DNA from: Rubrivivax sp.
GTDB taxonomy: Bacteria > Pseudomonadota > Gammaproteobacteria > Burkholderiales > Burkholderiaceae_C
Direction: 5' to 3'
DNA length: 64,000 bases
NCBI GenBank assembly: GCA_004210455.1
Contig: SEFA01000040.1
Location: forward strand, 1 to 64,000
This document shows, piece by piece, positions 171 through 55,912 of the stretch. A program made the translations under genes and the position numbers. Below the pieces are notes generated by a model. That model was not told the origin of the DNA and ran no database searches. It worked only from the letters and a program-made list of their open reading frames with translations. Numbering within the stretch: position 1 is the first letter of the stretch; the number at the start of each line of letters is the position of its first letter.

Positions 171-312
171 CACGTCGGAATTGTCGGAATTCGAGCGGGG
201 TGCAGTATGAAACAGCGACAAGCCCCTCTCAGGTGACTTTCGTTCATTGAAGCGAGACCATTGTCACGCAAACATCCCATGCCAGTCTCCCGAGGTCCCA
301 AAGGCAAGCCAC

Positions 313-2214
313 ATGACCCTCACCCTGCGCGCGGTGTCGCTCAACGACCTGCCCCTGACGCAGCCCATCACCGCGCGCTTCGACGCCACCGGGGGAACCA
401 TCGGTCGCGCCGACAACAACACCATGGCGCTGCCGGACCCGGAGCGCCACATCTCCCGCCAGCAGGCGGAGATCGCCGCCGAAGCCGGCGGGTATGTGAT
501 CCGCAACGTCGGCAGCGCCAATCCGATCACCGTCGCCGGCCAGCCGGTGGGCCAGGGCCAGTCCGTGCCGCTGCGCCATCTGGACCAGGTGCGCATCGGC
601 GGTTATCTGCTGGAGGTCCAGCAGGAGGAGGGCGCCGACAACGGCGCCACCGTCATCCGCCGCGCGCCGGACCTGAACCGGCCCAACACGCTCGGGCCCA
701 CGCCGGCGCCGACGCCGGCCGCGCTGTCCAGTTCCAACCCCTTCGCCGACCTGTTCGGCGGCAGCGCGGCGCCCGTCGATGTCTTCGGCCCGGCGCCGGC
801 GCCCGCCCCACCGGTATCGGCCTTCGCCGCGTCGCCGGTCCAGGCGCCGCCGCCCGCGCCCGTCGCGCCGATGATGCTGCCGGACGACTTCGACCCGTTC
901 GCGCCGCCGCCGCCCCGCGCCGCGCCGGCCTCCGCGCCCGGCTATCCGGCGGCGCATGCATCCGCTCATGCATCCGGTCATGCGTCAGGCTCCGCCGCGG
1001 CCAGCGCCGGCGGCATCCCCTCGTCCTTCGATCCCTTCGGAGGGCTGGACCTGGCCCCGCCGCCAGCGCCGGCGCAGCCGCCGGCCCGCAACGACAACCT
1101 CGGTTTCGGCGGCGCCTTCGCCGACCTGGTGCCGGGCGACAACAACCGCTCGCTGGACGATCTCTTCGGCCTGCAGCCGGCCGGCACCGATCCGCTCGCG
1201 GGCTTCATGGCCGGCGCGAACAAGCCCGGCGACAGCCTGCGCGATGCGGTGGGATCGGATCCGCTGGCGCTGTTCGGCGCCGCGGCGCCGGCCACGAACA
1301 CCGAGCCGCAGACCCCCGCGCTGCCGGATCACACGCCCGCGCTGCATTCGGCCTTCCGGCCGCCGGAGGTCCGCACGCCGGTGCCGCCCGCGCCGCCGCC
1401 GATGGCCGCCGTGGCACCCGCCATTGCGCCGCCGGCGCAGGTCCTGCCACCCGTGACGGCGGCGGTGGCCGCGCCAGTGATGCCGCCGCCGGCCCAGGTG
1501 CCGCCGTCTTACGCGCCGCCACCCCCGTCAACGATGGCCGCTGCGCCGGTTGCGCCGGGCTCGACCGCCGACACCGCCGCGCTCTGGCAGGCTTTCTGCG
1601 AAGGCGCCGGCATCCGCATGGCCGCGCCGCCGCAAGGTCTCAATCCGGACCTGATGCGCGTCATCGGCTCGCTGCTCAACGCCTCGGTGGACGGCACGCT
1701 GCGCATGATGGCCGTGCGTGCCGCGACGAAACACGAATTGCGCGCGCAGGTGACCGTGATCCGCTCGCGCGAGAACAACCCGTTGAAGTTCTCGCCCGAC
1801 GTGCAGTCCGCGCTCGAGCAGCTGCTCCAGCCGCCGGTGCGCGGTTTCCTGCCCGGTCCCGCGGCGATGCAGGACGCGATGCGTGACCTGGTCGGCCACA
1901 CCATCGGCACGATGGCGGGCACCCGCGCCGCGCTGGAGGGCGTGCTGACGCGCTTCCAGCCCAAGGCGCTGGAGGCGAAACTCACCAGCCGCTCGGTGCT
2001 GGACAGCGTGCTGGCGATGAACCGCAAGGCCAAGCTCTGGGAGCTTTACCTGCAACACTTCGAGTCCATCCGGGACGAGGCGCAGGAGGACTTCCACACG
2101 CTGTTCGGCAAGGCGTTCCTGGAGGCTTACGAAGATCAACTCGAGCGTCTGAGCCAGCATGGGCAGGGCGCCGCGCCGTCACCACAACAACAAGCACAGC
2201 AGAGCGGGGCCTGA
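313..2214 (+). CDS. tagH: T6SS-associated FHA domain protein TagH
   Basis: This is a forkhead-associated protein of T6SS loci, which in characterised systems is the phosphothreonine-binding target of the PpkA/PppA switch controlling assembly. The N-terminal FHA domain (about residues 20-95) shows IGRADNNTMALPDPERHISR, with the conserved G-R and S-R of phosphopeptide binders. A very long Pro/Ala-rich linker (about residues 115-420) separates it from a helical C-terminal domain (about 430-620) of the type found at the end of T6SS FHA proteins. The start at 313 places the FHA domain near the N-terminus; an upstream in-frame ATG at 247 would add 22 unusual residues. PppA follows 33 bp downstream on the same strand. 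Confidence 0.85.
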   Translation: MTLTLRAVSLNDLPLTQPITARFDATGGTIGRADNNTMALPDPERHISRQQAEIAAEAGGYVIRNVGSANPITVAGQPVGQGQSVPLRHLDQVRIGGYLLEVQQEEGADNGATVIRRAPDLNRPNTLGPTPAPTPAALSSSNPFADLFGGSAAPVDVFGPAPAPAPPVSAFAASPVQAPPPAPVAPMMLPDDFDPFAPPPPRAAPASAPGYPAAHASAHASGHASGSAAASAGGIPSSFDPFGGLDLAPPPAPAQPPARNDNLGFGGAFADLVPGDNNRSLDDLFGLQPAGTDPLAGFMAGANKPGDSLRDAVGSDPLALFGAAAPATNTEPQTPALPDHTPALHSAFRPPEVRTPVPPAPPPMAAVAPAIAPPAQVLPPVTAAVAAPVMPPPAQVPPSYAPPPPSTMAAAPVAPGSTADTAALWQAFCEGAGIRMAAPPQGLNPDLMRVIGSLLNASVDGTLRMMAVRAATKHELRAQVTVIRSRENNPLKFSPDVQSALEQLLQPPVRGFLPGPAAMQDAMRDLVGHTIGTMAGTRAALEGVLTRFQPKALEAKLTSRSVLDSVLAMNRKAKLWELYLQHFESIRDEAQEDFHTLFGKAFLEAYEDQLERLSQHGQGAAPSPQQQAQQSGA

Positions 2215-2247
2215 GCCCCGCCGTTTGTCCTACACGTCGTTCACACC

Positions 2248-3114
2248 ATGCTCAAGATCAGGGTTGCCGCCTGCAGCGAACAAGGCGCGCGCAACAACAA
2301 CGAAGACGCCATCGTGGCGCACGAAAACGGCCCCGGCTGGTACGCCGTGCTGGCCGACGGCGCGGGCGGCCACCGCAACGGGGCCGAGGCCGCGCGCCGG
2401 GCCGTGCACCGCATGCAGACCAGCCTGGGCGACGCGACGCTGCCGTGGCGTCCCGAGCTGCTGACCGGCGCGGTGCTGGCCGCGCACGACGACGTGCGTC
2501 GCGGCGTCGAGGGCACGGGCCGCGACCGCATGCACACGACGCTGGTGGCGCTGTGCGTCGACGCGCAGCGCAACTTCGCGCTGTGGACGCACGTGGGCGA
2601 CTCGCGGCTGTACCGCATCCGCGGGGGCGACATCGACACGATCACGCAGGACGACAGCGTCGTGCAGATGCTGATCGAGGCCGGGCTGCTGACGCCCGAG
2701 CAGGCGGAGGACCATCCGCACAAGAACCACCTCGTGGCCGCGCTGGGCATCGAGGACGACCTGCATCCGCACACCACCCCGCCGCAGCCGCTGCAGGACG
2801 GCGACGTCTTCCTGCTGTGCAGCGACGGCTGGTGGGGCAGCGCGGGCGACACGCTGATCCACGACACGCTGCGCGCGGCGGCCTCGCCGGACGACTGGCT
2901 GGCGGCGATGCGCGCGGTGATCGAGGAACGGGGCCTGCCCGATCAGGACAACTTCAGCGCGATCGCGCTGTGGGTGGGCGAGCCCATGCTCGCGAAGGTG
3001 GCGCAGACGCCGGCCGACGAGGCCGGCAGCGCGGCGCAGGAGTCGTCGATCGACTCCGGACCGGTGCCGCTGGAAGAGGAAGAGGACGAGTCGACGCGGC
3101 GCATGCCGCTCTGA
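2248..3114 (+). CDS. pppA: PP2C-family serine/threonine phosphatase PppA of the T6SS
   Basis: Metal-dependent protein phosphatase that reverses Ser/Thr phosphorylation of T6SS components, classically the FHA protein. Characteristic PP2C motifs appear in order: ARNNNEDA near residue 15, LADGAGGHRNG near 35, HVGDSRLYRIRGG near 115, LLCSDGWWG near 188 and QDNFSAIALWVG near 232, so the metal-binding aspartates are all present. The last 35 or so residues are acidic and probably disordered. At 288 aa it is slightly longer than a minimal PP2C domain. It directly follows tagH. No partner kinase (PpkA) is in the window, so it probably lies elsewhere in the locus. Confidence 0.9.
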   Translation: MLKIRVAACSEQGARNNNEDAIVAHENGPGWYAVLADGAGGHRNGAEAARRAVHRMQTSLGDATLPWRPELLTGAVLAAHDDVRRGVEGTGRDRMHTTLVALCVDAQRNFALWTHVGDSRLYRIRGGDIDTITQDDSVVQMLIEAGLLTPEQAEDHPHKNHLVAALGIEDDLHPHTTPPQPLQDGDVFLLCSDGWWGSAGDTLIHDTLRAAASPDDWLAAMRAVIEERGLPDQDNFSAIALWVGEPMLAKVAQTPADEAGSAAQESSIDSGPVPLEEEEDESTRRMPL

Positions 3115-3133
3115 GGCTCCGAGCTTCCGGTGT

Positions 3134-4609
3134 TCAGTGCCGCACGGCCGGCCACCGCGCCGGCGACGCCACGAACGCGCTCAACTGCTGCGCGGTCTTC
3201 GACAGGGCCGCGGCCGTCTCCAGGTTGCGCTGCGCGACCTGTTCCGCATCCGTGGTCGCGCGTCCGACATCGTTCAGCGCGACTTCCAGTTGACGCCCTG
3301 CGGTCGACTGCTGATGCGTCGCCATCCGGATCTCCTTGCTCGCGATGTCCGACGCGGCCACGCGTTCGGAGATCAGCGAGAACATCGCCTCCGCCTCCGA
3401 GAACAGCGACGAATTCGCGGCCACCGCCTTCACGCCCGCTTCGGTCGACATGATGGTGGCGTTGGAGACGTTGCGGATCGAATCGAGCTGGCGACGGATG
3501 TCCACCGCGTCGGCGCGCACCTTCTCCGCCAGGCGGCGGATCTCGTCGGCGACCACGCGGAAGCGCTCGCCGGCGTCGCCCGCGCCGTAGGCCTCGATCG
3601 TGGCGTTGATCGCCAGGATGTTGGTGCGCTCGGCCAGTTCCTCGATGGCGCCGAGCACGGTGACGGCCCCCTGGACCTCCTTGCCCAGCGTCGTCATCTG
3701 CGTGACCACCTTGTCGATCTGCTGGCTCAGCCCCACGGTGGCCTCCCGCGCGCGGGCCATGGCCTGGCTGCCGGCATGCGCGGCGCGCGTGCTGGCCGAG
3801 GCCATCTCCTCGACCTCGTTGGAGCGCTGCGCGATCTGGTTGGCGGCGGCCTGCACCTCGTGCATCGTGGCGGTGAGCTCGATGGCGGCGGAGGAAGTCT
3901 GCTTTGTCGCGCCGGCCTGCTTCAGCGAGGACGCTTCCAACTCGCGCGCACGGGCGGCCACGTCCACGGCGGAGGCGCCTACCATCTGCATGAGCAGCCG
4001 TTGCAGCACCAAGCCGGTGACGACGACGATCATCAGCCCGAGCGCCGTGCCGCCCAGGCCGATGCCCTTGACCAGGCGCGTGGTCTGACCCATCTCGGCC
4101 GACCGCGCCACGAGGTGCTCGACCTCATCGTTCTCCATCAGGCTGAAGCGCGAGCGCAGCCGCTCCATGCGCTGGCGGACCTGGCTGACCTTGGGCGAGC
4201 GGGTGACCTCTTCCAGCGTCATCGTCTCGCGGTCGGCGATGCGCTCGCGGAACAGGGCGAGCAACGCCGAGATGTCCTTCTCCGTGTTGTCCAGGTCGGC
4301 GGTGCGGGCTCGCCATGCCGGCGTCACGCGCATCTCTGCCATCTCCGAGGAGATCTCGGCGACGGAGCGGTCGAGCGCCGTCAGATAGGCCGCGTCCTTG
4401 GTCAGCATGAAGCCGCGCTGCGCCGCCTCGGCCTCGGCGACGTCGTTCAGAAGCTCCGCCAGGATGCGCAGACCCTGGTGGCTCCGCGTCACGCCGTCGG
4501 CGGCCGATTCCATCAGGTAGGCGCTGCGCATCGCGACGGCGCCGACCCCGCACAGCACCAGCGCGGCCAGGAGGAAACCCAGCCCGAGTCCGCGTCCGAA
4601 AGTCTTCAT
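3134..4609 (-). CDS. Methyl-accepting chemotaxis-like receptor with CHASE3-type sensor
   Basis: Membrane receptor with TM1 at about residues 8-29, a periplasmic helical region resembling CHASE3 (contains [18 protein letters not shown]), TM2 near 185-205 and a cytoplasmic signalling domain. The normally very conserved hairpin tip is diverged: it reads [20 protein letters not shown] and then RFRVVADEI, instead of the usual [21 protein letters not shown]. No HAMP domain is obvious after TM2. Convergent with pppA (20 bp apart) and upstream of nothing chemotactic, it sits inside the T6SS cluster. The start was set at the ATG at 4609, which precedes [11 protein letters not shown]; ATGs at 4633 and 4615 are alternatives. 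Confidence 0.85.
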
Positions 4610-43045: not shown

Positions 43046-43153
43046 GGAGAGGGGCGACCGGGTCCCCTTTTCTCCATCTCCCTCCTTTGCTTGCCTCCCG
43101 GCAAGCAAATTCCCTCCTTAAGTTCCGAAAAGGGGACCCGGTCGCCCCTCTCC
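43046..43153. repeat. Large perfect inverted repeat (27-bp arms) with nested hairpin
   Basis: Arms at 43046-43072 and 43127-43153 are exact reverse complements (outer sequence GGAGAGGGGCGACCGGG...). The 54-nt interior holds a second perfect dyad TTTGCTTGCC-TCCC-GGCAAGCAAA (43086-43109). It lies between the convergent mscS-like and otsB genes, with the right arm inside the last codons of otsB. It could act as a terminator for both or be an inserted palindromic element related to the REP-like repeats. Confidence 0.9.
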
Positions 43154-50581: not shown

Positions 50582-51973
50582 TCAGCGCGACGCCGGGGGG
50601 CTGGCCGCGCCGGCGGCCGCCGGGAAGGCGGCCTGCGGTCCCGCGGCGCCGGTGGCGGTGACGCGCCAGATGACGTTGCCGACGTCGTCAGCCACCAGCA
50701 GCGCGCCCTGGCGGTCGAGCGCGACGCCGACCGGACGTCCCATCGCCTGGCCCTGCGCGTCGAGGAAGCCGGTCACCACATCGACCGGCAGACCGCTGGG
50801 CTTGGCGCCGACGAAAGGCACGAACACCACCTTGTAGCCCGCGGGCACCTTGCGATTCCACGAACCGTGCTGGCCGATGAACATGCCGTGGGCGAATTCC
50901 TGCGTCAGCTGGTTGCCGTCAGAGGAAGCCAATCCGAGCGAGGCGGTGTGCGCGCCCACGGCGAAGTCCGGCACCAGCGCCTTCTCCACGAGCTCGGGCC
51001 GCTGCGGCTTGACGCGCTCGTCGACGTGCTTGCCGTACCAGCTGTAGGGCCAGCCGTAGAAGCCGCCGTCCTGGACCGAGGTGATGTAGTCGGGCACCAG
51101 GTCGTCGCCGAGTTCGTCGCGCTCGTTGACCGCGACCCAGAGCGCCTTGCTCGTGGGCTCCCAGGCCAGGCCGACCGGATTGCGCAGGCCCGACGCGAAC
51201 ACGCGCGTCGAACCGCTCTGCAGGTCGATCTCCAGGATCGCGGCGCGACGCTGTTCGTTCTCGATGCCGTTCTCTGCCACGTTGCTGTTGGAGCCGATGC
51301 CGGCGTAGAGCTTGGTGCCTTCCGCATTCGCGATCAGGCTCTTGGTCCAATGGTGGTTGATGGTGCCGCCGGGCAGGTCCGCGACCTTCGTCGGCTTGCC
51401 GGCCAGCCGGGTCTGCCCGGTCGCGTAGGGGAAGCGCACGATCGCGTCGGTGTTGGCGACGTAGAAGCTGTTGCCGACCAGCGCCATGCCGAACGGCGAG
51501 TTCAGGCCCTCCGCGAACGCGAAACGCTGGTCCGCGACGCCGTCGCCGTTGGTGTCCCGCAGCAGGGTGATGCGGTTGGCGCTCTTGGGCGTGGCGCCGG
51601 CCTTCTTCTGGAACTGCTTGGTGATCCAGGCCTTGGGGCCCTTGCCGTCGTCCGGGCGCACCGGGGCGTTGGTCTCGGCGATCAGCACGTCGCCGTTGGG
51701 CAGCACGTAGAGCCAGCGCGGATGGTCGAGCTTGTCGGCGAAACGCGCGACCGCCAGACCGGCTGCGGCCTGCGGCTTGGCGCCGGAGGGCCAACCGACC
51801 GCCTTGGCGACGTTGATCGTCGGCACCAGCGCCTTCTGCGGCTCGGGCAGCGCGGGGTTGGGACCGTAGCCGGGCGGGGTCGCGGGTTGCGCCTCGAGCG
51901 CGAGCACCGCGGCAGCGGCGCAGGAGAAGGCAGCGCCGACGATGAAGCGGCGGACCAGGGACGACTTGTTCAT
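50582..51973 (-). CDS. PQQ-dependent sugar (sorbosone-type) dehydrogenase, exported
   Basis: The 463-aa product begins with a signal peptide (FIVGAAFSCAAAAVLALEAQ) followed by a six-bladed propeller typical of soluble PQQ glucose/sorbosone dehydrogenases. Visible blade motifs are HPRWLYVLPNGDVLIAETN, LRDTNGDGVADQRFAFAEGL, SPFGMALVGNSFYVANTDA, FASGLRNPVGLAWEP and FIGQHGSWNR. It should oxidise an aldose in the periplasm. The start at 51973 is set by GGAGAACCCGA and the signal peptide. It is monocistronic, with no PQQ biosynthesis genes nearby. Confidence 0.9.
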   Translation of the reverse strand: MNKSSLVRRFIVGAAFSCAAAAVLALEAQPATPPGYGPNPALPEPQKALVPTINVAKAVGWPSGAKPQAAAGLAVARFADKLDHPRWLYVLPNGDVLIAETNAPVRPDDGKGPKAWITKQFQKKAGATPKSANRITLLRDTNGDGVADQRFAFAEGLNSPFGMALVGNSFYVANTDAIVRFPYATGQTRLAGKPTKVADLPGGTINHHWTKSLIANAEGTKLYAGIGSNSNVAENGIENEQRRAAILEIDLQSGSTRVFASGLRNPVGLAWEPTSKALWVAVNERDELGDDLVPDYITSVQDGGFYGWPYSWYGKHVDERVKPQRPELVEKALVPDFAVGAHTASLGLASSDGNQLTQEFAHGMFIGQHGSWNRKVPAGYKVVFVPFVGAKPSGLPVDVVTGFLDAQGQAMGRPVGVALDRQGALLVADDVGNVIWRVTATGAAGPQAAFPAAAGAASPPASR

Positions 51974-52089
51974 TCGGGTTCTCCATCCAGAGGCCGCCCC
52001 GGCAAGGGCGGCAGCAGCGATGCACCGAGCAAGCGGAGTGCCCGCCCCGGGAGGCCGTCCGGAACGCGAGGGTGCGCCACGCCGATGTG

Positions 52090-53550
52090 CTACCGGATCT
52101 TTCCTGGTTGCCACTGGCGCCATAGCCTCGACGCGACGCGTCTGACGCGTTCCGCGAATTTCCGCGCCTTGGAGGGGTTCGCCGGCGGATCGATCCCGCG
52201 TCGCGGCGCCTCCGCCAGCCGGCGTTCGCGTTCCATCCCCCTCAATGCCTCGGAGGCCTCCGCAAGGACCGCTTCGAACGGCGTCGAGGCGTCGCTGGCC
52301 GCCACTGCCCGCTGGAGCGCCCGCAGCGGGGCCATCCGCTCGATCCCGAGGACGTCAAGAACCGACGCGTCGCCCAGAGGCGTTTCCCGGCGCTCTCCCG
52401 CTCTGCCCAGGCAACCTGAGGTGGCCAGGTCGACCTGGGTGTGCACGAAGGCCTTGTCCATCGCAAGCAGGTCGAGCCGGAGGAGGACGGACCGGAGGTC
52501 CGCTTCCAGCGGCCGGCCGGCCAGTTCGCTCGGGGACTTGCCGTCCGGGGTCATGAACAGTCCGGATGCCGACAGGACGTTCTCCGATCTCTCGCAGATC
52601 TCGCTCAGCCCACGGGCGGAGAGGGCGGTGTGCTGAGAGACGAAACGGCCGTTGGCGTCGACCCCGAAGTCGCTCCAGACGGGCCTCACGTGTCCGAGCA
52701 TCCACTGACCGACGACCGCTCGCTGGAGCGTGGCGACGTCCGGAAGCTTCCTACCTGGAGATGGCGATCCGTCGATCGCATCGACGATCACCACGCGCGG
52801 CTCGTCGGCGCACAGCGGATCACCGACGGTGGCCCGGGGAAGGCAGAAGTCGATACCGGCCTGTCTGCGCAGGTCGGCGTGCATCGCCGCGCCCATGGCC
52901 ACCCTGAGGGCCGCTTTCGTCGCCTCCCTCACGGCGCCCGACCCTGTCGGCGCGGGAGGGATCGCCAGGAGCCGGAAGACCGGAAGACCGTCGTCGGCGT
53001 CGACGACAAGCTGCGTCGTGCTGTCGGACAAGCGATGCTTCGGCAACGCCCCGCGCCATTGACGCACCTGGGCGGCGCGCTTCGTCGGCGACTCTTCCGC
53101 CTGCGCCCGGCAAGCGAGTGCGGTGCGCAGCGCCTTCGGGTGATGCACGGGTTCCCGGGTCGCCGCGTGGTTCCGTGGCAATTGGGCGATCCCTTGCAGG
53201 CAAAGGACGGCCAAGTTGAGCTTGGCCTGTCCTTTTTCCTGGCTCTCATAACCGCCGCGCTCCTTTCGTTTGATGTATCCCAGGAGGCGGTCGCGCAGGG
53301 CCTGAGCTTCGCCGTCGTCGAAGAGGCCCTCGACCTGCGCACGCCTGATCAGCCGGTCGTAGTCGGCCTTCACGGCCGAGAAGCTGTCCGCATGCGCCCG
53401 GTGCAAGCGGTGCAAGCTGTGCGGTGCGCGCGCCATCAGGCGCCGGAAGAACCCCCCCTGCCTGGCGTCGGCGGGCGACGGCATCTTCCGCGCATCGACA
53501 GGACCGGTGTTCCTGTCGCGAATGCCCGCTGCGCTCACTGACAATGTCAT
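52090..53550 (-). CDS. Effector-like protein with degenerate PI3/4-kinase-like core
   Basis: This 486-aa protein has a polar N-terminus without signal peptide. Residues 180-310 follow the layout of phosphatidylinositol 3/4-kinase-like or actin-fragmin-kinase folds: PTGSGAVREA at 201-210 (ATP-loop position), then a helix, a hinge strand (EPRVVIVDAIDGSP, 250-263) and QWMLGHVRPVWSDFGVDANG at 282-301. The expected catalytic GNxDRHxxN and the metal Asp are not conserved (GHVRPVWSD, and QHTALS for IDxxLS). GAGGAG 8 nt before ATG 53550 fixes the start. The homology is inferred from pattern only. It is divergent from the broken TonB receptor gene. Confidence 0.6.
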   Translation of the reverse strand: MTLSVSAAGIRDRNTGPVDARKMPSPADARQGGFFRRLMARAPHSLHRLHRAHADSFSAVKADYDRLIRRAQVEGLFDDGEAQALRDRLLGYIKRKERGGYESQEKGQAKLNLAVLCLQGIAQLPRNHAATREPVHHPKALRTALACRAQAEESPTKRAAQVRQWRGALPKHRLSDSTTQLVVDADDGLPVFRLLAIPPAPTGSGAVREATKAALRVAMGAAMHADLRRQAGIDFCLPRATVGDPLCADEPRVVIVDAIDGSPSPGRKLPDVATLQRAVVGQWMLGHVRPVWSDFGVDANGRFVSQHTALSARGLSEICERSENVLSASGLFMTPDGKSPSELAGRPLEADLRSVLLRLDLLAMDKAFVHTQVDLATSGCLGRAGERRETPLGDASVLDVLGIERMAPLRALQRAVAASDASTPFEAVLAEASEALRGMERERRLAEAPRRGIDPPANPSKARKFAERVRRVASRLWRQWQPGKIR

Positions 53551-53746: not shown

Positions 53747-55912
53747 ATGAAGACGATTCGATACACCGCCTGCGCGGGCGCAGTCCTGGCGATGCTCGGC
53801 GGCCAGGCCCTCGCCCAGCAGGCACCGACGCCGGAGGCGAAGGCGCTGCCCACCGTGGTCGTGTCCGGCAGCGTGGCCGAGCGCCGGCTCGACGAGGCGC
53901 CGTATGCGGCCTCCGTCATCGATGCGGACACGCTGCGCTCGGCGGGGCCGATGATCAATCTCTCGGAGGCGCTGGCCCGCGTGCCCGGCCTCACCGCCAA
54001 CAACCGTCAGAACTACGCGCAGGACCTGCAGCTGTCGTCGCGCGGCTTCGGCGCGCGGGCGCCGTTCGGCGTGCGCGGCTTGCGGCTCTACACGGACGGC
54101 ATCCCGGCGACGATGCCGGACGGGCAGGGGCAGGTCACGCACTTCGACCTGGCGTCCGCCGCGCGCGTGGAGGTGCTGCGCGGACCGTTCTCGGCGCTTT
54201 ACGGCAACAGCTCGGGTGGCGTGATCGCGCTGGTCAGCGCACCCGTGCGCGAGCGCTTCGCCGCGCTGGATGTCGACGCCGGCAGCGCCGGACTGCGCCA
54301 GGCCCGCTTCACCGCCGGCACACCCTTCGGCGACGGATGGGAAGCGCAGGGCGGCGTCTCGCGCATGGAGACCGACGGATTCCGCCCGCACAGCGCCGCG
54401 CGACGCACGCTGGCCAACGGCCGCCTCGCGTGGAGCGGCGCGCGCGACCAGGTGCTGCTGCTGGCGAGCGACATCGATCAGCGCGCGCAGGACCCGCTCG
54501 GACTGACCGCCGCGCAGTTCGCCGCCGATCCGGATCAGACCGCGTCCCAGGCCGGGCAGTTCAACACCCGCAAGAACGCAAGCCAGACGCAGCTGGGCGC
54601 GCGGTGGCGGCACCAGTTCGACGAGGCCGGCGCCCTCTCCGAAGCCGTGCTGGCCGCTTACGCCGGCCAGCGCTCGGTGACGCAGTGGCAGTCCATCGCC
54701 GTCGGCGCGCAGACGCCGCCGGGCAGCGGCGGCGGGGTGGTGGACTTCAGCCGGGATTACGACGGCGTCGACGCGCGCCTGATGTGGCGGCTGGGGTCGG
54801 CGACGCTGGTCACCGGCGTGAATCTCGAACGCCAGCGGGACGACCGCCAGGGCTACGAGAACTTCGTCGGCACCGGGACGTCGCAGCAATTGGGCGTGAC
54901 GGGCGCGCTGCGTCGCGATGAGCAGAACCGGGCCGTGACGCGCGAGGCTTACGCGCAGGGGGAACTCCCGCTGACGACGAAGCTCACGGCGAGCGCGGGC
55001 GTGCGCGCGGGACGGGTCTCGCTCTCCGCCCGCGACCGCTTCCTGGGCAACGGCGACGACTCCGGGTCGCTGCGTTATGACTACGCCAATCCGGCGGTGG
55101 GGCTGGGATGGAAGCTCACGCCGTCCTTGCTGCTGCACGCCGCGCTGGGGCGGGGATTCGAATCGCCGACGCTCAACGAGCTGGCTTACCGCGCGGACGG
55201 GCAGGGCGGTTTCAACACCGCGTTGCGGCCGCAGAAGAGCGTGCAGCAGGAGGTCGGCGCGAAATGGCGCGCGGGGACGGTCGAGCTCGACGCCACCGCC
55301 TTTCACGTCACGACGCGCGACGAGATCGGCGTGCTGACCAACAGCGGCGGCCGCTCGAGTTTCCAGAACGTCGGCCGCACGCGGCGCAGCGGCGTGGAGC
55401 TGTCCGGTGCCTGGGATGTCGCTTCGCGCTGGCGCGCGCAGATGGCGCTCGGGACGCTGAAGGCGCGCTACCGGGACGGTTTCCTGACCTGCACCGGCAC
55501 GCCGTGTCCGGCCGCGAACGTGCCGGTGCAGGTCAGGAAACCGTCCCGGTAGCGCGCCTTCAGCGTCCCGAGCGCCATCTGCGCGCGCCAGCGCGAAGCG
55601 ACATCGCCGTTCGAGGTCGCGCGTGACGGCGAACTGGCGCTCGAATGGCGCGGCGTCAAGCGCGCCGCGGTCAACGACGTGAACAGCGAATGGGCCGGCG
55701 GCTACGGCGTGCTCAACCTGCGCGCGCGCCGCGGCTGGACGGTCGGGGCGATGCGGGCGGAGCTGATTGCGCGCGTCGACAACGCCGCCGATCGCCGCTA
55801 CGTCGGCAGCGTCATCGTCGACGACGGCAACGGCCGGTTCTACGAGCCGGCGCCGGGGCGATCGTTCTGGCTGGGCGTGTCGCTGCGCGCGGCGTCGTCA
55901 CGGGAACCATGA
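53747..55912 (+). pseudogene. TonB-dependent receptor, interrupted by an inverted duplication
   Basis: An outer-membrane receptor frame starts at ATG 53747 (GGGAGGACG upstream) with signal peptide YTACAGAVLAMLGGQALAQ, plug domain (VPGLTANNRQNYAQDLQLSS, RGFGARAPFGVRGLRLYTDG) and beta-barrel strands. A TAG at 55550-55552 (codon 602) ends it early. The same frame then continues without further stops to 55912 and encodes the normal barrel end (ADRRYVGSVIVDDGNGRFYE, then PAPGRSFWLGVSLR). The stop lies inside the right arm of an 87-bp perfect inverted repeat. Loss of the last strands should abolish function unless the feature is an assembly error. Confidence 0.85.
55415..55605. repeat. Perfect 87-bp inverted repeat with 17-nt spacer inside the receptor gene
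   Basis: The left arm 55415-55501 and right arm 55519-55605 are exact reverse complements over all 87 bases. The left arm reads as normal receptor sequence (barrel strands ending LTCTG), so the right arm is the copied one. The arm-spacer junction holds CACCGGCACG/CGTGCCGGTG, which could have seeded strand switching. Confidence 0.97.

Follow-up and report, generated by a model that had tools for sequence, protein, structure and literature searches.

Template-switch mutations have mostly been inferred from short changes or from reporter genes. In Escherichia coli, quasipalindrome reporters show the same kind of mechanism as the one considered below (PMC7202029), and in apes, where such events have been described with a four-point model, the order 3-2-1-4 is reported among the two majority patterns (PMC7954356); similar template-switch events are described as making RNA stems (PMC8794818). 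Interrupted palindromes have also been studied in E. coli, where one of 246 bp with a 24-bp spacer is reported to be cut by SbcCD, yet to be tolerated by recombination-proficient cells (PMC4245961), and where one of 85 bp is described as not being an SbcCD target (PMC3315005). In the same species, PqqU is described as a TonB-dependent importer of PQQ and a phage receptor (PMC12124388, PMC12172434).

Our study concerns a stretch of 64,000 nucleotides (hereafter, the window) from a Roseateles-like bacterium, in which a long perfect palindrome lies inside the gene of a TonB-dependent receptor. This palindrome is best read as a long and recent example of an already known class of DNA-copying errors. 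It offers a natural case in a bacterial gene where the source, the fold point, the return point and the site of the displaced sequence can all be read.

The palindrome and its rarity

The features of the locus are as follows, with identities to the 15 relatives that form the rows of our alignment and, where named, to the relatives L007 and L006.

53747..55552, + strand: truncated TonB-dependent receptor, PqqU/YncD-related, 601 aa (Pfam Plug and TonB_dep_Rec barrel)
55415..55501, + strand: left arm, native receptor DNA from which the copy was taken; identity of 92.0% (L007) and 89.7% (L006), as in the flanking gene
55492..55501, + strand: left half of the dyad, pre-existing; 10/10 complementary in 5 of the 15 rows
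55502..55518, + strand: native spacer of 17 nt; 58.8-88.2% identical to the 15 rows
55519..55528, + strand: right half of the dyad, native (100% to L007 and L006); probable point at which the growing strand left its template
55529..55605, + strand: novel segment of 77 nt, exact reverse complement of 55415-55491; 34-45% identical to the 15 rows, versus 64-90% downstream
55550..55552, + strand: TAG in the reading frame of the receptor, from the copied segment
55606..55912, + strand: native remnant of the barrel end past the stop, original frame open; 89.7% to L007 and 84.4% to L006

The arms of the inverted repeat (55415-55501 and 55519-55605, + strand) are 87 nt each and 100% complementary, with a 17-nt spacer and a total span of 191 bp. 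From base composition, approximately 10^-39 inverted repeats like this pair would be expected per 64 kb. The computed DNA fold of the region reaches -145.4 kcal/mol, while shuffled sequences average -57.1 (z of -26), and none of the 200 shuffles folded as well. The second-longest perfect inverted repeat in the window, among those with arms at most 300 nt apart, has arms of 27 nt, and elsewhere in the same genome no perfect arms longer than 23 nt were found within the same distance (16 stretches, 301,000 bases). The 109 homologous loci that we searched (719,986 bases, some species being present twice) contain no perfect inverted repeat longer than 21 nt with a spacer of at most 60 nt, and the palindrome is absent from all 14 congeners in which the gene has a close copy. 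We also scanned the window for further template switches, with 37,840 and 36,743 of its 64,000 bases aligned to the two closest relatives. Seven perfect inverted repeats of at least 14 nt were found; three lie in unaligned stretches, and among the four that could be compared with both relatives, only the 87-nt palindrome departs strongly from both.

In a genome-wide search, both arms match their own site alone at useful length. This, together with the fact that one arm is native gene sequence, makes the insertion of a mobile palindromic repeat of the REP or MITE type extremely improbable, even if one small family of inverted repeats does exist in this genome, at 43046-43153 of the window and in seven further places; we rejected this candidate on those two grounds. 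As an observation in its own right, the element at 43046-43153 has perfect inverted arms of 27 nt around a 54-nt spacer, and a 121-base stretch around it matches the seven other places, on other contigs, at 77-93% identity; this suggests a small palindromic element dispersed in the genome.

Comparison with relatives and fate of the receptor

The 15 relatives aligned are the closest among 55 loci compared by BLAST. Two loci that also gave long matches, L038 and L039, were omitted, L038 being an apparent duplicate of L014. The rows apparently represent 12 species, with three pairs of rows of identical values that look like one species in two collections; of the 14 congeners that possess a close copy of the gene, these species make up 12, and one further congener (G007) lacks such a copy.

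In all 15 rows, 62 native nt are found where the window has the 77 nt of 55529-55605, which lengthens the gene by 15 nt. Every one of these 77 positions agrees with the reverse complement of 55415-55491, while the next best site in the window reaches 41 of 77. The alignment shows native sequence in the left arm and spacer, in the initial 10 nt of the right arm and throughout the part downstream of 55605, and from 55606 to 55912 no codon is lost to gaps against L007 or L006. Judged by these rows, the right arm is a replacement of native sequence by a backward copy of its neighbor, not a simple insertion. An earlier note on this DNA, made from its letters, had described an inverted duplication and had proposed that homologues be aligned to see what the right arm replaced: the palindrome is there, but not as a copy simply added, and the alignment identifies the displaced part as 62 nt of native receptor DNA. 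Its description of the arms as perfect, 87 bp long and 17 nt apart agrees with our measurements, and the relatives confirm two further statements that it made, that the TAG at 55550-55552 truncates the receptor and that the frame is the same before and after the palindrome. Being divisible by three, the gain of 15 nt leaves the frame unchanged across the palindrome, and past the TAG the original receptor frame stays open until the next in-frame stop at 55910.

The receptor product thus has 594 native residues, followed by 7 from the right arm and the TAG at 55550. The lost part is the barrel end, corresponding to residues 586-700 or so of E. coli PqqU, and nine positions that are invariant across 25 aligned relatives fall in the replaced or lost part. 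An outer-membrane barrel without its last strands is generally not expected to be properly inserted. The truncated barrel presumably does not work.

A very stable hairpin and a frame maintained on both sides are what a functional reversible switch or a regulatory hairpin, serving for on-off control of the receptor, might be expected to present. We consider this explanation very improbable and rejected it: the 62 nt of conserved barrel sequence are gone, so neither excision nor inversion would restore the receptor. In addition, the arms match their own site alone at useful length, and none of the 109 homologous loci has the palindrome. The suggestion of the earlier note that the hairpin might be able to revert is therefore unsupported, the hairpin holding no information from which the 62 absent native nt could be rebuilt.

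The best NCBIfam match of the window receptor is PqqU, at 499.3 bits, and the intact relative L007 reaches 593.8 bits against the same model; both values are below the curated cut-off of 1200 bits, and we consequently label the receptor as PqqU-related only. The best matches of intact L007 are the E. coli YncD/PqqU structures, with E values of about 1e-140 (6v81: 1.2e-140), far above the others of the 31 matches. The likeness to E. coli PqqU extends over nearly the whole length of L007 (54-727 of 735 aa) and, in the window copy, up to the truncation only. Of the 12 residues described as PQQ contacts (PMC12124388), seven were compared in L007, and six of them (Q84, Q121, K274, R304, R365 and R536) are identical. 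The differences are Y99, which is Phe in L007, the scores below the NCBIfam cut-off and the truncation of the window copy. By homology, then, the window receptor is a relative of PqqU, the PQQ importer, and by analogy the loss of a PqqU-type phage receptor could be favored by selection.

Two observations concern PQQ itself. First, a search for PqqE, of PQQ synthesis, gave no match over the cut-off in this genome, in 11 of 12 relatives or in any of 14 control genomes; that the model is able to pass its cut-off is seen in one relative (G038). Such an absence would fit reliance on imported PQQ. Second, a protein with a glucose/sorbosone dehydrogenase domain is encoded near the receptor (window 50582-52123, - strand); a single frame that belongs to no known family separates the two. 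This type of domain is often PQQ-dependent.

Origin of the palindrome

We consider it likely that one recent template switch, made in the cell within a PqqU-like receptor gene, gave rise to the palindrome. With the gene copied from left to right, the growing 3' end, once past the right half of the dyad (55528), would leave its template and fold back onto the left half of the dyad across a 17-nt loop. Its own strand (or the other strand, with the same result) would then be copied back to 55415, adding 77 nt, and the growing strand would rejoin the original template 62 nt ahead of the exit point. The order along the gene would be 3-2-1-4 in four-point notation, and such an event would leave the 87-nt arms of the palindrome, 15 additional nt and the early TAG. 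The footprint, the copying direction, the disappearance of 62 nt, the earlier dyad and the stop can be read from the sequences; the cellular origin, the single event and the fold-back of the + strand are the parts of this explanation that we infer.

The features by which four-point template switches are recognized are found here: the novel segment is the reverse complement of a nearby one, the source and both flanks are collinear with the relatives, and the relatives lack the change. The collinearity of source and flanks gives the change a direction. The feature that marks quasipalindrome-associated mutations, a pre-existing dyad at the fold, is likewise present. The 10-nt dyad CACCGGCACG/CGTGCCGGTG sits at the inner ends of the arms; it is perfect (10/10) in 5 of the 15 rows, apparently four species (the closest relative L007, L036/L009, L013 and L015), and partly complementary (5-9 of 10) in the remaining 10. 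Because it is perfect in those five rows, the dyad very likely predates the event, and it could prime the fold-back. Both the natural dyad at the inner junction and the template switch that would use it had been proposed in the earlier note, and the comparison with relatives supports the two proposals. Against a template switch, the copied segment of 77 nt greatly exceeds in length the quasipalindrome of the E. coli reporter, which has 18 bp (PMC7202029). The direction of the fork with respect to dnaA, worked out by hand, places the gene with the fork in two genomes (G015 and G012) and seemingly against it in a third (G008), the gene being far from dnaA in all three; the window has a slight positive GC skew (+0.012 to +0.032).

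The return junction (55605|55606) has no microhomology, judged by eye from the alignment with relatives, and the return step is consequently read from the footprint alone. A return without microhomology would fit end joining, and the same kind of footprint would be left if a double-strand break, and not a switch at the fork, had been repaired by priming from a fold-back and 62 nt had been lost before the ends were rejoined. Fold-back inverted duplications are described as the major class of rearrangement in yeast without Mre11 nuclease activity (PMC10622511), and our searches of this genome detected neither the SbcD (Mre11) nor the SbcC family. We regard break repair as distinctly unlikely, given that it needs more steps.

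The same junction bears on whether the palindrome might be an artefact of amplification, library preparation or assembly, an option also named in the earlier note, with a polymerase folding back in vitro and the resulting chimera ending up in the contig. Whole-genome amplification is reported to yield artificial palindromes when the polymerase reverses onto the strand that it has just made (PMC6218980), chimeras in amplified DNA are said to be seeded by inverted repeats (PMC4060946), and the genome is a draft of 189 contigs. A plain fold-back read, however, has one junction and runs on backwards, whereas this sequence has a second junction, at which the collinear gene resumes 62 nt further on, and, as an argument from the sequence, no word is shared at this return join. 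Moreover, the site lies 55 kb into a contig of 75,145 bases, and the 301,000 bases sampled from the same genome hold no other long perfect palindrome. An artefact therefore seems unlikely to us, while deserving serious weight.

With regard to the age of the event, the divergence between the arms is zero, with a 95% bound of 3.4% on the summed divergence; against the two closest relatives, the window diverges by 10-12% upstream and by 10-16% downstream. Since the arms are identical and the palindrome is absent from the 109 homologous loci, the event is recent and specific to this lineage, unless the arms have been kept identical by later copying. A recent mutational event was one of the three options offered in the earlier note, together with the remark that the same palindrome in related strains would speak against it; the identity of the arms and the lack of the palindrome in every one of those loci are on the side of this option. 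Past the stop, the changes specific to the window are five synonymous and four non-synonymous over 98 codons, compared with three and two in L007 and ten and two in L006. The window changes are slightly richer in non-synonymous ones, perhaps as a sign of relaxed constraint, and too few to date the event.

SbcCD, persistence and known systems

In the genome that carries the palindrome, no SbcD or SbcC protein scored over the curated cut-offs of four models (TIGR00619, PF12320, TIGR00618 and PF13558). For SbcD, TIGR00619 gave no match over the cut-off in 17 genomes (8 of 14 controls did), and PF12320 (SbcD_C) gave none in 36 genomes, including the 16 of the genus (6 of 14 controls); the lack of SbcD_C thus reaches beyond the genus and is not special to it. 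For SbcC, TIGR00618 gave no match in 17 genomes, with a weak control, as just 1 of 14 control genomes was over the cut-off, and PF13558 (SbcC Walker B) was over it in 5 of 36 genomes, among them the congener G002 (1 of the 16 of the genus), and in 12 of 14 controls. A genome of the same order (G040) has an SbcC match over the cut-off, a partial SbcD match of 62.1 bits, below the cut-off, and no PF12320 match, from which it follows that the SbcC and SbcD models can miss divergent forms. Our literature search found no statement on the absence of SbcCD in Betaproteobacteria, including in the available text of PMC1193525.

The weak SbcD and SbcC matches in the palindrome-bearing genome are a metallophosphoesterase, a metallophosphoesterase with a TIR domain and a SMC/RecN-type ATPase. 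We also note a locus of the same genome (L159, G000:C67) whose frame 308-4033 (- strand) combines calcineurin-like phosphoesterase and TIR domains and might be a defence gene.

The non-detection of SbcC and SbcD fits an easier persistence of the palindrome, without showing it. A general excess of long palindromes was not seen in the 301-kb sample, which counts against the reading that the lack of SbcCD lets palindromes survive; such an excess is favored neither by this result nor by the tolerance described in E. coli. It is accordingly doubtful that, in Roseateles without detected SbcCD, long fold-back template switches survive into assembled genomes. If this were true, the genus would be a natural laboratory for a class of mutations that SbcCD helps to erase elsewhere, and the loss of PqqU-type phage receptors would be one outcome that selection could favor. 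The palindrome raises in this way a testable link between missing SbcCD and the tolerance of long palindromes.

Among the known systems, the engineered interrupted palindromes of E. coli resemble this one in their long arms, their short spacer and the hairpin formed on single-stranded DNA, as reported for two constructs (PMC4245961, PMC3315005), whereas this palindrome is natural, spans 191 bp and lies in a genome where SbcC and SbcD were not detected. The coding palindromes reported in nematomorph mitochondria are also long perfect inverted repeats within protein genes (PMC6649704). There, in contrast, each arm encodes conserved protein, and four genomes are reported to contain 110 repeats (PMC6649704), while in the window the second arm brings a stop and the palindrome is the only one of its kind seen here. 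The short-range switches of great apes share with the window the footprint of two switches, the 3-2-1-4 order and one new perfect inverted repeat (PMC7954356); the four-point sets described come from primate genomes and RNA genes, and the present case from a bacterial protein gene that is truncated by it. Finally, in the E. coli QP5 and QP6 lacZ reporters, as in the window, the dyad of a hairpin lets one arm be copied onto the other into a more perfect palindrome (PMC7202029); the reporters have an 18-bp quasipalindrome with a change of 4 bp, whereas in the window the copy measures 77 nt and 62 nt have been displaced.
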